Assembly: GCA_030041495.1 (NCBI GenBank)
Contig: JASHNT010000092.1
Location: 45,679 to 109,678, forward strand
Source of the DNA: Bryobacteraceae bacterium
GTDB taxonomy: Bacteria; Acidobacteriota; Terriglobia; Bryobacterales; Bryobacteraceae
Length of the DNA stretch: 64,000 nt
Direction: 5' to 3'
The notes under the pieces are model-generated. The model was not told the DNA's origin, did no database searches, and was given only the letters and a program-made list of their open reading frames with translations. Both the position numbers and the translations under genes were made by a program. Numbering within the stretch: the stretch's first letter is position 1; each line of letters begins with the position of its first letter. Below are positions 12,826 through 22,332 of this stretch, in pieces.

Positions 12826-14193
12826 ATGCCGATCGCCACCATAAATCCCGCCACCGGAGACATCCTCCGCACCTTTCCCGCCCTTACGGACGCGCAGATT
12901 GAAGAGAAGCTCGCGCTGGCTGCCAAGGAGTATCTCTGCTTCCGCAAACTCTCCTTCGCCCAGCGCGCGGCCATGATGAGTAAGGCCGGCCAGCTTCTGG
13001 AATCCGAAAAGCAGGAGCTTGGCAAACTGATGACCACGGAGATGGGCAAGACGCTCGCCTCCGCCGTCGCCGAAGCCGAAAAATGCGCGTGGGTCTGCCG
13101 CTACTACGCCGAAAACGCGGAGCGATTCCTCGCGCCGGAGGAAGTGAAGCTCGGCCCGGCCAAGACGCGCGTCATCTATCAGCCCATTGGGCCGATTCTC
13201 GCGGTGATGCCCTGGAATTTTCCGTTCTGGCAGGTGTTTCGTTTCATCGCGCCGAATCTGATGGCGGGCAACGTGGGTTTGCTCAAGCATGCGTCAAACG
13301 TGCCGCAGTGCGCGCTGCGGATCGAGCAACTAATGCACGAGGCCGGATTCCCGCAAGGCGTGTTTCAGACTCTGCTGGTCGGCTCGGACAAGGTTGACGG
13401 CATCGTTAATGACGTTCGTATCGCCGGAGTCACTCTGACCGGAAGTGAGGGCGCGGGTATCCAGGTCGGCATCTCGGCGGCGAAGCGCATCAAGAAGGTA
13501 GTAATGGAGTTGGGCGGGAGCGATCCCTTCATCATCATGCCCAGCGCGGATCTGGACAAAGCGGTCAGCACGGCGGTGACCGCCCGCACCATCAACAATG
13601 GTCAATCCTGCATTGCGGCCAAGCGATTCATCGCCGCCGAGCCCATTGCAGAGCAATTCCAAAAGAGCTTCGTGGAGAAGATGCAGGCTCTGCGCGTCGG
13701 CGATCCCATGGACCCTGCGACCGAACTCGGGCCGCTCTCGAGCGCAAGCGCGGTTGCCGATCTCGAAGCACAGGTGGATGCCGCGGTGAAGGCTGGCGCG
13801 AGAGTGCTCACTGGCGGCTATAAGCTCGATCGGCCGGGGTGCTTTTACGCCCCCACAGTATTGACCGATATTTCCAAGAATTCGCCTGTCTATGGAGAAG
13901 AATTATTCGGCCCCGTGGCGTGCGTATACAAAGTCCGGGATGCCGGCGAAGCGATCGAGGTCGCCAATGACAGCAAGCTGGGTCTGGGGGCCAGCGCATG
14001 GACCAATGATCCTGCGGAACGCGAACGCTTTGTGAACGAAATCGAATCGGGGATGGTGTTCATTAATAAGATGGTGGCCTCCGACCCGCGCTTGCCTTTC
14101 GGAGGAGTGAAACGATCCGGGCATGGACGCGAGCTGGGTGTACTCGGCATTCGCGAGCTGGTGAACGCGAAGACGATTTGGATCGAGGACTAG
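12826..14193 (+). CDS. NAD(P)-dependent aldehyde dehydrogenase, succinate-semialdehyde type
   Basis: First gene of the ten-gene operon. The sequence INPATGDI, VMPWNFPFWQVFRFIAPNLM, LLKHASNVP, the catalytic Glu in VMELGGSDPF (about 228) and catalytic Cys in NNGQSCIAAKRF (about 262) match the Sad/YneI group of succinate-semialdehyde dehydrogenases. It oxidises an aldehyde to the acid with NAD(P). Length 455 is normal for that group. The real substrate may be a semialdehyde made within this pathway. The stop codon is directly followed by the ATG of the next gene. Confidence 0.93.
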   Translation: MPIATINPATGDILRTFPALTDAQIEEKLALAAKEYLCFRKLSFAQRAAMMSKAGQLLESEKQELGKLMTTEMGKTLASAVAEAEKCAWVCRYYAENAERFLAPEEVKLGPAKTRVIYQPIGPILAVMPWNFPFWQVFRFIAPNLMAGNVGLLKHASNVPQCALRIEQLMHEAGFPQGVFQTLLVGSDKVDGIVNDVRIAGVTLTGSEGAGIQVGISAAKRIKKVVMELGGSDPFIIMPSADLDKAVSTAVTARTINNGQSCIAAKRFIAAEPIAEQFQKSFVEKMQALRVGDPMDPATELGPLSSASAVADLEAQVDAAVKAGARVLTGGYKLDRPGCFYAPTVLTDISKNSPVYGEELFGPVACVYKVRDAGEAIEVANDSKLGLGASAWTNDPAERERFVNEIESGMVFINKMVASDPRLPFGGVKRSGHGRELGVLGIRELVNAKTIWIED

Positions 14194-15090
14194 ATGGCGA
14201 ATCCTTCTCAAGTCAAGCTTGGATACGTTGGATTGGGTGTGATGGGCGGGCAGATGGTGGACCGTCTGCTCGAAAAGGGCCACACGGTCACTGGGTGGAA
14301 CCGGACCAAGTCGAAGGCGCAGTGGCTGATCGACAAGGGGATGAAGTGGGCCGATTCGCCGAAAGCCGTGGCCGAGGCTTGCGACATCGTTCTTTCGATG
14401 GTCACCGATTCCGAAGCGCTGAAAAAGATCGCGAGCGGCGATAGCGGCATCCTTTCCGGTCTCAGCAAAGGGAAAATTTGGGTGGAGATGAGCACGGTGA
14501 GCCCAGCCGTGAGCAAAGCGGTGGCCGAGCAGGCGCGCAGCGCGGGCGCGGACATGGTGGACGCTCCGGTCTCGGGCAGCGTGATCACCTTGCAGCAGGG
14601 CAAGCTCTCCATCATGGTCGGCGGGCACGCCAAAACGTTTGAGCGTGTAAAGGCGATGTTGCTGGACATCGGGCCCAAAGTCACGCACGTGGGTGAGAAC
14701 GGACTGGCGCTGGTGATGAAGATCGCGGCCAATCTCAGCTTGGCAACGCAGATTCTGGCGTTCTCCGAAGGCGTTCTGCTGGCCGAAAAAAGCGGCATCC
14801 CGCGCGAAGTCGCAGTGGATGTGTTGACGCACAGCGCCGTGGCTTCGCCGATGATTCAGTATCGCGGGCCGTTCGTACTCAAGATGCCGGACGAAGCGTG
14901 GTTCAATGTGAACATGATGCAGAAGGATCTGCTGCTGGCCGGCGAACTGAGCCGGCAGTTGAACGTGCCTCTGCCCACCGCCTCCCTTTCCAACGAATAT
15001 CTGACGGCGGCTCGCGCGATGGGGCTGGCGGACCAGGATTTCGCGATCATCTTTGAAGTATTAGCGAGGATGTCAGGAGTTTCGAAATGA
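14194..15090 (+). CDS. NAD-binding beta-hydroxyacid dehydrogenase (3-hydroxyisobutyrate/tartronate-semialdehyde type)
   Basis: Rossmann motif GYVGLGVMGG at about residues 8-17, substrate motif DAPVSGSVITLQQG and the catalytic lysine in LVMKIAANL identify the beta-hydroxyacid dehydrogenase family, which interconverts hydroxyacids and semialdehydes. The family includes 3-hydroxyisobutyrate, tartronate-semialdehyde and GLYR1-like succinate-semialdehyde reductases. Length 298. It starts right after the aldehyde dehydrogenase stop and overlaps E1alpha by four bases, so these steps are likely consecutive. The specific substrate is not visible. Confidence 0.9.
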   Translation: MANPSQVKLGYVGLGVMGGQMVDRLLEKGHTVTGWNRTKSKAQWLIDKGMKWADSPKAVAEACDIVLSMVTDSEALKKIASGDSGILSGLSKGKIWVEMSTVSPAVSKAVAEQARSAGADMVDAPVSGSVITLQQGKLSIMVGGHAKTFERVKAMLLDIGPKVTHVGENGLALVMKIAANLSLATQILAFSEGVLLAEKSGIPREVAVDVLTHSAVASPMIQYRGPFVLKMPDEAWFNVNMMQKDLLLAGELSRQLNVPLPTASLSNEYLTAARAMGLADQDFAIIFEVLARMSGVSK

Positions 15091-16079
15091 CCACCGCTCC
15101 CGTCCAGCCCGGCGTTTCCGAAGATCAGGCTCGGGCGCTGCGCTTGTATCGCAAGATGCTGGCCATCCGCCTGTTCGAGGAGCGTGTCAACGATCTTTAC
15201 ACACGCGCCCTGATGCCAGGCCTCGCCCACCTTTATATAGGTGAGGAAGCCGTCGCCGTGGGCGTATGCGAGGCTCTCCATCGCGACGACTACATCACCA
15301 GTACGCATCGCGGCCATGGGCATTGCCTGGCGAAGGGTGCCGCGCTGGACCGGATGTTCGCGGAGCTGCTCGGCAAGGAAGCCGGCTATTGCAAGGGCAA
15401 GGGTGGTTCAATGCACATCGCCGATCCGGACACCGGCAATCTGGGAGCGAACGCGATTGTCGCGGGCAGCGCGGGCATCGCCACCGGCGCGGCGTTTTCG
15501 GCAAAGCGCCTGGGAAATGGGCGCGTGGCCGCGTGCTTCTTCGGCGAAGGCGCGCTCGGACAGGGAGTGGTTTACGAAGTGATGAACATGGCCGCGGTGT
15601 GGAAGCTGCCTGTGATCTACGTGTGCGAAAACAACCTGTACAACGAGTACACGCACATGTCCGAGACTACGGCGGGCGATCCGATGGTGCGCGCCGCGGG
15701 GTTCGGAGTGCATGCGGAAAGCGTCGACGGGCAGGACGCTCGCGCGGTGTATTCGGTGACGGCGAAGCTGGTCGAGCACGCGCGGCGCGGCGAGGGGCCG
15801 GTATTTCTCTGGGCAAATACGTATCGTTTCGCCGGCCATCATGTCGGCGACATCAGCCGCGAGTATTATCGCGCCAAGCAGGAAGAGACACTGTGGAAGA
15901 CGGAGCGCGACCCGCTGAAGATCATGACCGCCTGGCTGACCGCGAATCGCGTTGCCGACGCGACTTGGCTGGATCGAGCGCATAGCGAGATCCAGGCGGA
16001 AATAGAAAATGCCGTGCAGTTCGCGCTAGCGGCTCCCTATCCGGCGCCGGAAAAGGTAGTCGAGGACGTGTATGCCTGA
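15087..16079 (+). CDS. 2-oxoacid dehydrogenase E1 alpha subunit (pyruvate/acetoin type)
   Basis: Thiamine-diphosphate-dependent E1 alpha chain. HRGHGHCLAKGA, GGSMHIADP and the TPP motif running from GEGALGQG to ENNLYNEY are diagnostic. With E1 beta it decarboxylates a 2-oxoacid (pyruvate) or cleaves acetoin and passes the acyl group to the lipoyl arm of E2. Length 330 agrees with PdhA/AcoA of Gram-positive type. It overlaps the E1 beta start by eight bases. Location in a catabolic operon, with no E3 gene, points to a dedicated complex using a shared dihydrolipoamide dehydrogenase, which is inference. Confidence 0.92.
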   Translation: MTTAPVQPGVSEDQARALRLYRKMLAIRLFEERVNDLYTRALMPGLAHLYIGEEAVAVGVCEALHRDDYITSTHRGHGHCLAKGAALDRMFAELLGKEAGYCKGKGGSMHIADPDTGNLGANAIVAGSAGIATGAAFSAKRLGNGRVAACFFGEGALGQGVVYEVMNMAAVWKLPVIYVCENNLYNEYTHMSETTAGDPMVRAAGFGVHAESVDGQDARAVYSVTAKLVEHARRGEGPVFLWANTYRFAGHHVGDISREYYRAKQEETLWKTERDPLKIMTAWLTANRVADATWLDRAHSEIQAEIENAVQFALAAPYPAPEKVVEDVYA

Positions 16080-21990: not shown

Positions 21991-21993
21991 ACC

Positions 21994-22332
21994 ATGACCA
22001 CGACTTTTATCGATACAAACAAACTGCCGCGAATTGATTCGCCCAACGGAGAGTTCACCGAGATCCTTAACGGCCCGCTGGTGGGCGCGAAGAATGTGCT
22101 GGGCACGCTGCGGTGGCTTGAGCCGGGCGAGTTCTTTCAAGCGGAGAGGAACGGCAAGCACCAGCTCCTATATCTAATGGCGGGTTCGGGGGTGATTTCG
22201 CTCGAAGGCAAGGATTACGAGGTTCGCAAAGGCTCCGGCGTGTATCTGGGCCCGGAAGACAGCGCGTTGATCCGGTCGAGCGCGGGATCGCTCAAGCTAT
22301 TTCATTTGGAAGTTCCGAGGATTCCGCAGTAG
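21994..22332 (+). CDS. small cupin-domain protein lacking a clear metal site
   Basis: Last gene of the operon, three bases after the first cupin. It is 112 residues with cupin features (LGTLRWLEPGEFFQAE, LLYLMAGSGVISLEG, KGSGVYLGPEDSALIR), but the H-x-H pair of motif 1 is absent; only one His (NGKHQLL) remains. A non-catalytic, sensory or stabilising role beside the metal-bearing cupin is possible. I see no clear terminator in the six bases before the convergent coiled-coil gene. Confidence 0.8.
   Translation: MTTTFIDTNKLPRIDSPNGEFTEILNGPLVGAKNVLGTLRWLEPGEFFQAERNGKHQLLYLMAGSGVISLEGKDYEVRKGSGVYLGPEDSALIRSSAGSLKLFHLEVPRIPQ

Follow-up and report, generated by a model that had tools for sequence, protein, structure and literature searches.

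In this study, we analysed a 64,000-nt window of the genome of a Bryobacteraceae bacterium (6.1 Mb in 144 contigs; contig JASHNT010000092.1) and found that ten plus-strand genes at positions 12826-22332 form an operon that is a lineage-specific fusion of two modules, which also occur apart. Module A encodes an aldehyde dehydrogenase (ALDH), a beta-hydroxyacid dehydrogenase (beta-HAD), the E1 alpha, E1 beta and E2 components (E1a, E1b and E2) of a 2-oxoacid-dehydrogenase-type complex, and an enzyme of the M24 pita-bread fold. Module B encodes a homologue of the tetrahydrofolate-dependent aryl O-demethylases LigM and DesA followed by two small cupins, and the tenth gene encodes a DinB_2-fold protein. 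An earlier reading made from the sequence alone had given the order of these genes, the gaps of -8 to +23 bases between them and a family for each; all are present as it described, and Pfam agrees with every family name, weakly for cupin 2. We tentatively propose that LigM-cupin-cupin demethylates methoxylated aromatic acids and that the core of module A cleaves a polyhydroxylated ring with thiamine diphosphate and lipoate, without a dioxygenase.

Module A is common across Acidobacteria and usually lacks a demethylase. A scan of genome contigs gave 494 relatives of the M24 protein, and the best 80 loci outside the window genome (78-85% identical), all in records labelled Acidobacteria or their subgroups, were used. 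The simple open reading frame (ORF) caller applied to fetched loci misplaces some genes; hence neighbours were counted by tblastn at an identity of at least 45%, only in loci with enough flank. Upstream of M24, E1b was found in 68 of 73 loci, E1a in 63 of 68 and beta-HAD in 57 of 62, and E2 lay downstream in 58 of 61. ALDH was present within 6.5 kb in 25 of 59 loci and LigM within 5 kb in 3 of 57; no locus gave a DinB match. In the usual form of the module, beta-HAD is preceded by a GntR/FCD regulator, and a TonB-type receptor, an FrsA-like hydrolase and a DctA-type transporter are often nearby (receptor and transporter assigned by eye). The hydrolase, FrsA/Ayg1-like with 'Yellowish-green 1-like' as its best PDB match (L065:15594-16829 and 35 other loci), was seen near the M24 core in 36 of 92 loci (a few of them duplicates), often with a large TonB-type receptor.

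Module B likewise occurs by itself. Among 20 core-bearing genomes picked by hand from the 80 (completeness unstated), 14 gave no LigM match at E 1e-60 and three held LigM paralogues of 59-63% only. The genomes of L006, L013 and L020 carry a LigM orthologue (77-79%) on a contig other than that of M24, as a stand-alone LigM-cupin-cupin triplet without M24; in such triplets (L127-L129), cupin 2 lies beside cupin 1. These results do not bear out the view of the sequence-only reading that the ten genes make up one complete peripheral pathway for a methoxylated compound, and the occurrence of the modules apart rules out a single conserved ten-gene pathway.

Within the genus of the window, the fusion recurs. 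Three genomes (L086-L088) hold the nine genes other than DinB in the same order, and a further locus (L089) has this order from E1a on, where its contig starts (L087-L089 are the same contigs as L009, L011 and L012); the adjacency is therefore not due to chance. A search for the same gene order in other Acidobacteria genomes had been put forward as a check, and the demethylase indeed stands beside the M24 and E1/E2 genes in such genomes. Among 61 related genomes, M24 was found in 12, LigM of at least 75% identity in nine, cupin 1 in 11 at 1e-30 or better (12 at 1e-15), and an E1b orthologue (at least 78%) in six, all M24-positive; a seventh E1b match, 56% identical, came from a genome without M24. 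Across the 23 genomes of the genus, cupin 1 and M24 were both present in ten, cupin 1 only in one, M24 only in one and neither in 11 (Fisher 1e-4, kinship ignored), and the corresponding counts for LigM and M24 were 8, 1, 3 and 11 (Fisher 0.003, kinship ignored), the weak cupin 1 match of genome G011 (3.3e-17) being counted as absent in both tables. The tie to M24 is thus somewhat closer for cupin 1 than for LigM, and two genomes (G002 and G021) have cupin 1 with M24 but without LigM. Eight of the nine genomes with operon-type LigM hold M24; in the ninth, which gave no M24 match, the contig begins inside E2 directly before LigM-cupin-cupin, and therefore the operon is cut there.

The operon also takes other forms. 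E1/E2 are missing from L095, and from L094 together with a beta-HAD match; L091 consists of ALDH-beta-HAD-M24 alone, L096 of beta-HAD-M24-cupins without LigM, a MetE-like methyltransferase replaces LigM in L093, and in G004 M24, LigM and the cupin pair lie on three contigs. On the 3' side of LigM-cupin-cupin, L086-L089 carry genes for a MetE-like protein (PF01717), an MFS transporter and a double cupin. The best model for this MFS transporter is the aromatic acid/H+ symporter (217 bits, below the cut-off of 418.55), and a transporter of the kind lies near M24 in six genomes of the genus. PcaG/PcaB/PcaC were found close to the core in L090 and in L028, which is closely related to it.

The demethylase is LigM-like, as the sequence-only reading had it. 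The protein passes the NCBIfam model for LigM, scores 703.7 bits with that for DesA (NF047633; below the cut-off of 800), 92.7 bits with the best GcvT model, far below its cut-off, and 49.1 bits with that for DmdA (cut-off 410), and aligns nearly end to end with the LigM structures PDB 5tl4/5x1i (E 6e-161). We take its R121 and Y242 to correspond to the carboxylate residue R122 and the catalytic residue Y247 of LigM. The residues aligned to Tyr247 and Arg122 are conserved in 24 of 24 LigM rows (counting the window and duplicates) but not in the GcvT of the same genome; three or four of the LigM paralogue rows differ at a His and at a second Tyr, both of which are intact in the window. In a tree of 20 rows, from which five duplicates had been dropped, nine canonical LigMs split off at 100/100 and the window protein joins them next at 85/86; other cupin-linked LigMs also lie outside the canonical group, and the GcvT of the genome is remote, on a very long branch. 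Clustering with folate-only GcvT proteins had been named as a point that would count against the sequence-only reading; the tree places the protein away from GcvT, and scores and tree together rule out a GcvT-only protein. It is very likely that the operon LigM demethylates an aromatic acid.

Compared with the LigM/DesA system for O-demethylation of vanillate and syringate (Sphingobium SYK-6 type), the window protein is of the same family, with a folate-binding GCV_T domain and the aligned Tyr and Arg kept. However, the operon differs in its two private cupins, its M24 core and its separate LigM lineage, and in what it lacks: MetF and PurU were not found among the ten genes by Pfam, and neither Pfam nor NCBIfam gave a match to any family of ring-cleaving dioxygenases for the ten proteins, in agreement with the sequence-only reading. 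The window genome holds two further LigM paralogues, 59% identical, and no M24, E1/E2 or cupin gene adjoins them.

The M24 protein defines a subfamily with an altered metal site, here called 'CYYRT'. The metal ligands of M24 peptidases are Asp, Asp, His, Glu and Glu. In the window protein D264, H341, E374 and E389 are kept (E389 in 224 of 225 sequences), and the second Asp is C275; Cys occupies this position in all 225 aligned sequences, a set that includes near-duplicates (same genomes reached via two routes) and from which alignments spanning <380 residues were dropped. The best curated model is that of DddP (NF043017), at 118.2 bits against a cut-off of 600. The predicted structure has the pita-bread fold with DddP as top matches, prolidases, DoeA and creatinase following close behind in Z; C275 aligns with the second ligand Asp of DddP, and the N-terminal domain can be aligned to DddP. 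Although DddP thus gives both the best model and the top-ranked fold, the protein differs from it in score, in the Cys and in its neighbours, and an identity as DddP was rejected on the score and the incomplete metal set. It has the fold of M24 peptidases but lacks their full five-ligand set, and an ordinary peptidase (prolidase or aminopeptidase P) was rejected because Cys replaces the second metal Asp. Many members of the subfamily are named 'Xaa-Pro aminopeptidase' in databases and are probably misannotated. A 34% identical paralogue with the CYYRT motif kept occurs in the same genus (L097:9061-10338), followed by proteins that by eye resemble the N-terminal part of phosphoenolpyruvate synthase, a 2-hydroxyacid dehydrogenase and an HMGL-type protein.

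With the pyruvate dehydrogenase equivalog models, E1a scores 333.6 bits (cut-off 393.85) and E2 280.9 bits (cut-off 445), and E1b passes a subfamily model (Table 1). The three proteins, with the lipoyl, E3-binding and acyltransferase domains of E2, resemble pyruvate and acetoin dehydrogenase complexes, but their E1 lineage is a dedicated one that travels with M24 in Acidobacteria and Rhodobacterales. Elsewhere the window genome holds an E3 gene (526.9 bits, cut-off 408.8) and a homologue of methylenetetrahydrofolate reductase, with which the two modules could both operate. Cupin 1 gave weak matches to TIGR03214 (22 of 200 bits), PDB 1sq4 and DddK. A tblastn search for DinB at 0.01 over the window and 140 fetched loci matched the window alone; an essential isomerase was therefore rejected, and DinB is probably not an essential step. 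Other DinB-like proteins were seen by eye near related loci, and at L140:1-19801 (G004:C110) cupins 1 and 2 adjoin two DinB-like genes, one Asp-racemase-like and one beta-HAD-like gene, with genes resembling purine/allantoin catabolism, by eye, next to them.

Table 1. Genes of the operon, with their positions in the window and the family evidence for each
Product	Module	Positions	Strand	Evidence
ALDH, GabD1/succinic-semialdehyde-dehydrogenase-like	A	12826..14193	+	PF00171 447 bits; best NCBIfam NF006915 673 bits (below cut-off 730)
beta-HAD, closest to tartronate/succinic semialdehyde reductases	A	14194..15090	+	PF03446/PF14833 (NAD_binding_2/11); TIGR01505 210.5 bits (below cut-off 340.75); PDB 3pef, 3pdu, 3doj (with succinic semialdehyde reductase activity)
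E1a, 2-oxoacid-dehydrogenase-type complex	A	15087..16079	+	PF00676 (E1_dh)
E1b	A	16072..17076	+	PF02779/PF02780 (Transket_pyr/C); NF006667 396 bits (cut-off 321)
DinB_2-fold protein, GTG start		17078..17602	+	PF12867 37.6 bits
M24 pita-bread-fold enzyme, 'CYYRT' subfamily	A	17626..19023	+	PF00557; Cys275 at second metal-binding Asp position
E2: lipoyl, E3-binding and acyltransferase domains	A	19023..20192	+	PF00364, PF02817, PF00198
LigM/DesA-type tetrahydrofolate-dependent aryl O-demethylase homologue	B	20189..21562	+	GCV_T (Pfam); NF047885 630.7 bits (cut-off 580)
Small cupin 1, HxH...E + H metal-type motifs	B	21574..21990	+	PF07883 (Cupin_2) 47.6 bits
Small cupin 2, weak cupin/AraC-binding match	B	21994..22332	+	PF02311 23.4 bits

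Relatives of the M24 protein are also found outside Acidobacteria. In a plasmid collection, 185 records match it at 1e-20, and 26 of the best 40 are 52-63% identical. Five plasmid loci of Rhodobacterales have E1a, E1b and a succinic semialdehyde dehydrogenase (SSADH) after M24, with a sugar-type ABC transporter and short-chain dehydrogenases/reductases (SDRs) near. The 18 best plasmid matches of E1a all lie in records with M24 (many of them near-identical plasmids), and the window E1a is 56-61% identical to the E1a beside M24 on Rhodobacterales plasmids, the next best listed match reaching at most 49%. A quick tree with midpoint root places the acidobacterial M24s as sister to four actinobacterial ones (L107, L112, L113 and L118; SH-aLRT 88); another actinobacterial M24 (L111), itself on a long branch, groups with those of Rhodobacterales. 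A Streptomyces locus combines M24 with a fused E1, E2, ALDH, an enoyl-CoA hydratase, an SDR, a double cupin, a flavin reductase and an HpaB-like monooxygenase (212 bits, below the cut-off of 480), and at a Rhodococcus opacus locus M24 is the only one of the ten window proteins to find a match.

On plasmid unnamed1 of Paenarthrobacter sp. R1 (L136:11402-21637), genes for M24, beta-HAD, an SDR and lpdA lie 3' of sad-type genes, which belong to sulfonamide degradation. The order is sadA-like, SadB-like, a gap of ~1.8 kb, SulR, enoyl-CoA hydratase (opposite strand), helix-turn-helix protein, RidA, M24, beta-HAD, SDR and lpdA, where RidA and M24 share one base and M24 and beta-HAD overlap by four; M24 is 60% and beta-HAD 28% identical to the window proteins. 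A second plasmid carries a fused E1, VOC, a second SadB-like gene, RidA, beta-HAD and M24. The SadB-like copies are 73% identical to each other and 37-38% to the sadA-like genes, and the accessible text of one study gives 73.2% identity between two sadB types (PMC10873849); the sadB identity in L113 and L136 rests on such agreement with published values, BR1 not having been compared directly. According to the accessible portions of PMC5693940, SadB/SadC 'most likely' convert 4-aminophenol to 1,2,4-trihydroxybenzene 'prior to mineralization', and the cluster drawn there also holds an enoyl-CoA gene, a Cro/CI regulator and a yjgF-family (RidA-family) gene; these portions name no M24 gene and no gene for the step after 1,2,4-trihydroxybenzene. 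Strain BR1 degrades 1,2,4-trihydroxybenzene, according to work cited in the part of PMC12589209 at hand, and maleylacetate is proposed for a Pseudomonas partner strain in that of PMC8953276. The titles, abstract openings and passages covered by our literature search contain no account of the M24/E1/E2 system. The sad cluster (Microbacterium BR1, Paenarthrobacter) resembles the window in that, in Paenarthrobacter sp. R1, M24 and beta-HAD come directly after RidA, 3' of the sad genes, but the window operon encodes no monooxygenase of the sad type. The M24, beta-HAD, SDR and lpdA genes of R1 are candidates for the step after 1,2,4-trihydroxybenzene. That the 'CYYRT' M24 and a dedicated thiamine/lipoyl complex serve dioxygenase-free ring opening of trihydroxybenzene-type aromatics both in Acidobacteria (on demethylated lignin acids) and in Actinobacteria (after SadB) is a broader idea that we regard as doubtful.

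The chemistry that we infer for the window operon would run as follows. LigM would move the methyl group of a vanillate-, syringate- or 3-O-methylgallate-type acid onto tetrahydrofolate; the product would reach the oxidation state of a cyclic alpha-diketone, and the cupins may isomerise, decarboxylate or hydrolyse it. The substrate of the core would then be a polyhydroxylated, keto-tautomerising ring product of the hydroxyquinol or quinone type. E1 would attack this carbonyl with thiamine diphosphate, E2 would transfer the acyl fragment onto CoA, and a gene outside the operon would provide E3. M24, with its Cys-containing metal site, may act as a hydrolase or lyase before or after ring cleavage, and ALDH and beta-HAD would dispose of a semialdehyde fragment. 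Thiamine/lipoyl proteins, RidA, aromatic hydroxylases and semialdehyde enzymes occur together, as would be expected if a polyhydroxybenzene gave rise to a cyclic alpha-diketone or quinone tautomer that is then cleaved. In favour of this proposal are the two modules themselves, the tie of cupin 1 to M24 within the genus, the E1 lineage dedicated to M24, and the links to aromatic compounds given by LigM, the MFS transporter, PcaG/PcaB/PcaC and the sad-type neighbours of M24 in Paenarthrobacter sp. R1. A parallel would be BqdLMS of Azoarcus anaerobius, a putative pyruvate-dehydrogenase-like system for hydroxybenzoquinone; our literature search found no account of its genes.

Several observations weigh against this proposal. 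Module A stands without LigM in most acidobacterial loci seen, and this, together with the sugar-type ABC transporters of Rhodobacterales, means that its substrate may be non-aromatic. Even in the genus, E1/E2 were not found near M24 in several genomes, and six of the 12 genomes with M24 have no E1b orthologue. The core is looser outside Acidobacteria and Rhodobacterales: 18 non-acidobacterial M24 loci have E1b near in nine, ALDH in nine and beta-HAD in seven, and the seven haloarchaeal ones among them have E1b in one, ALDH in two and beta-HAD in none, a haloarchaeal 'NAD(P)-dependent oxidoreductase' considered as beta-HAD being really an epimerase-type SDR. E1 of the actinobacterial loci is fused and distantly related, at 36-38% identity, and no listed gene fills the ~1.8 kb between SadB-like and SulR in Paenarthrobacter sp. 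R1. Finally, ordinary ring-cleavage genes lie elsewhere in the window genome, and the product of LigM could therefore leave the operon.

This last point leads to an equally serious explanation, which is possible to much the same degree: the LigM product (protocatechuate, 3-O-methylgallate or gallate) would leave the operon and be cut by dioxygenases encoded elsewhere, and module A would handle pyruvate and semialdehydes or another carbon source, being co-transcribed for regulation. The genome indeed holds a protocatechuate 3,4-dioxygenase-like pair (alpha 139.3 bits, above 126.25; beta 219.5 bits, below 296.4) and LigB-type dioxygenases, one of them beside a 4-carboxy-4-hydroxy-2-oxoadipate aldolase (356.6 bits, cut-off 179), and because of these genes new chemistry after demethylation, as raised by the sequence-only reading, is possible and not more. 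In two related genomes, LigM paralogues (58-62%) lie near genes of the gallate/protocatechuate 4,5-route, with 4-oxalomesaconate tautomerase in both (528 and 535 bits, cut-off 440) and, at one of them, also the aldolase (362 bits, cut-off 179) and a catechol-2,3-dioxygenase-type enzyme (340 bits, cut-off 320). These paralogues, however, are of a lineage other than the operon LigM with its private cupins, and cupin 1 tracks M24 even in G002 and G021, where LigM is absent.

We consider it unlikely that module A degrades a non-aromatic compound, such as an acid that yields a semialdehyde or a diketone derived from a cyclitol or sugar, with LigM-cupin-cupin demethylating a methyl ether of that class. 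Such a role would suit the five Rhodobacterales loci: sugar-type ABC transporters and SDRs accompany M24-E1a-E1b there, acetoin reductase is the best model for two SDRs at one locus, and a ThuA protein occurs in three of the five; but LigM keeps the residues associated with aromatic acids, and the actinobacterial M24 relatives sit with phenol-hydroxylase-type genes. A ureide/glyoxylate pathway, with cupin 1 ureidoglycine-aminohydrolase-like, beta-HAD as tartronate semialdehyde reductase and M24 as a creatinase-like amidinohydrolase, is very improbable: cupin 1 weakly matches TIGR03214 and PDB 1sq4, TIGR01505 is the best beta-HAD model and cupins 1-2 of G004 adjoin purine-catabolism-like genes (by eye), but both models score well short of the bits required (22 of 200 and 210.5 of 340.75), Pfam finds no amidase or ureide gene among the ten, and LigM is left unexplained. 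Least probable is a dimethylsulfoniopropionate-like pathway of DddP-type lyase, DddK-like cupins and folate-dependent demethylase, which despite DddP being the best curated model and top fold of M24 and the weak match of cupin 1 to DddK was rejected on the model scores and the M24 metal site: 118 bits against 600, Cys for the second metal Asp, prolidases, DoeA and creatinase near DddP in Z, and a demethylase that is LigM (630.7 bits), not DmdA (49 against 410).

Promoter- and terminator-like sites in the window were not commoner than in shuffled sequences, and a repeat scan gave short, weak repeats only. Just beyond the operon, a small minus-strand ORF (22339-22626) lies over five degenerate copies of a 28-nt unit, mostly 21 nt apart, and shows by eye a coiled-coil-like heptad pattern. 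A DUF1501 + DUF1800 gene pair (22709-26125, minus strand) lies directly downstream of the operon.

In summary, the analysis delimits a large subfamily of M24 proteins that is defined by sequence and whose metal site is altered. It provides testable candidates for the fate of methoxylated aromatics in demethylating Acidobacteria whose operon is without a dioxygenase, and for the genes that act after 1,2,4-trihydroxybenzene in sad-type sulfonamide degraders. If ring opening by the 'CYYRT' M24 and its thiamine/lipoyl complex is true, aerobic aromatic catabolism would gain a new branch and the M24 enzymes a new, Cys-ligated class.

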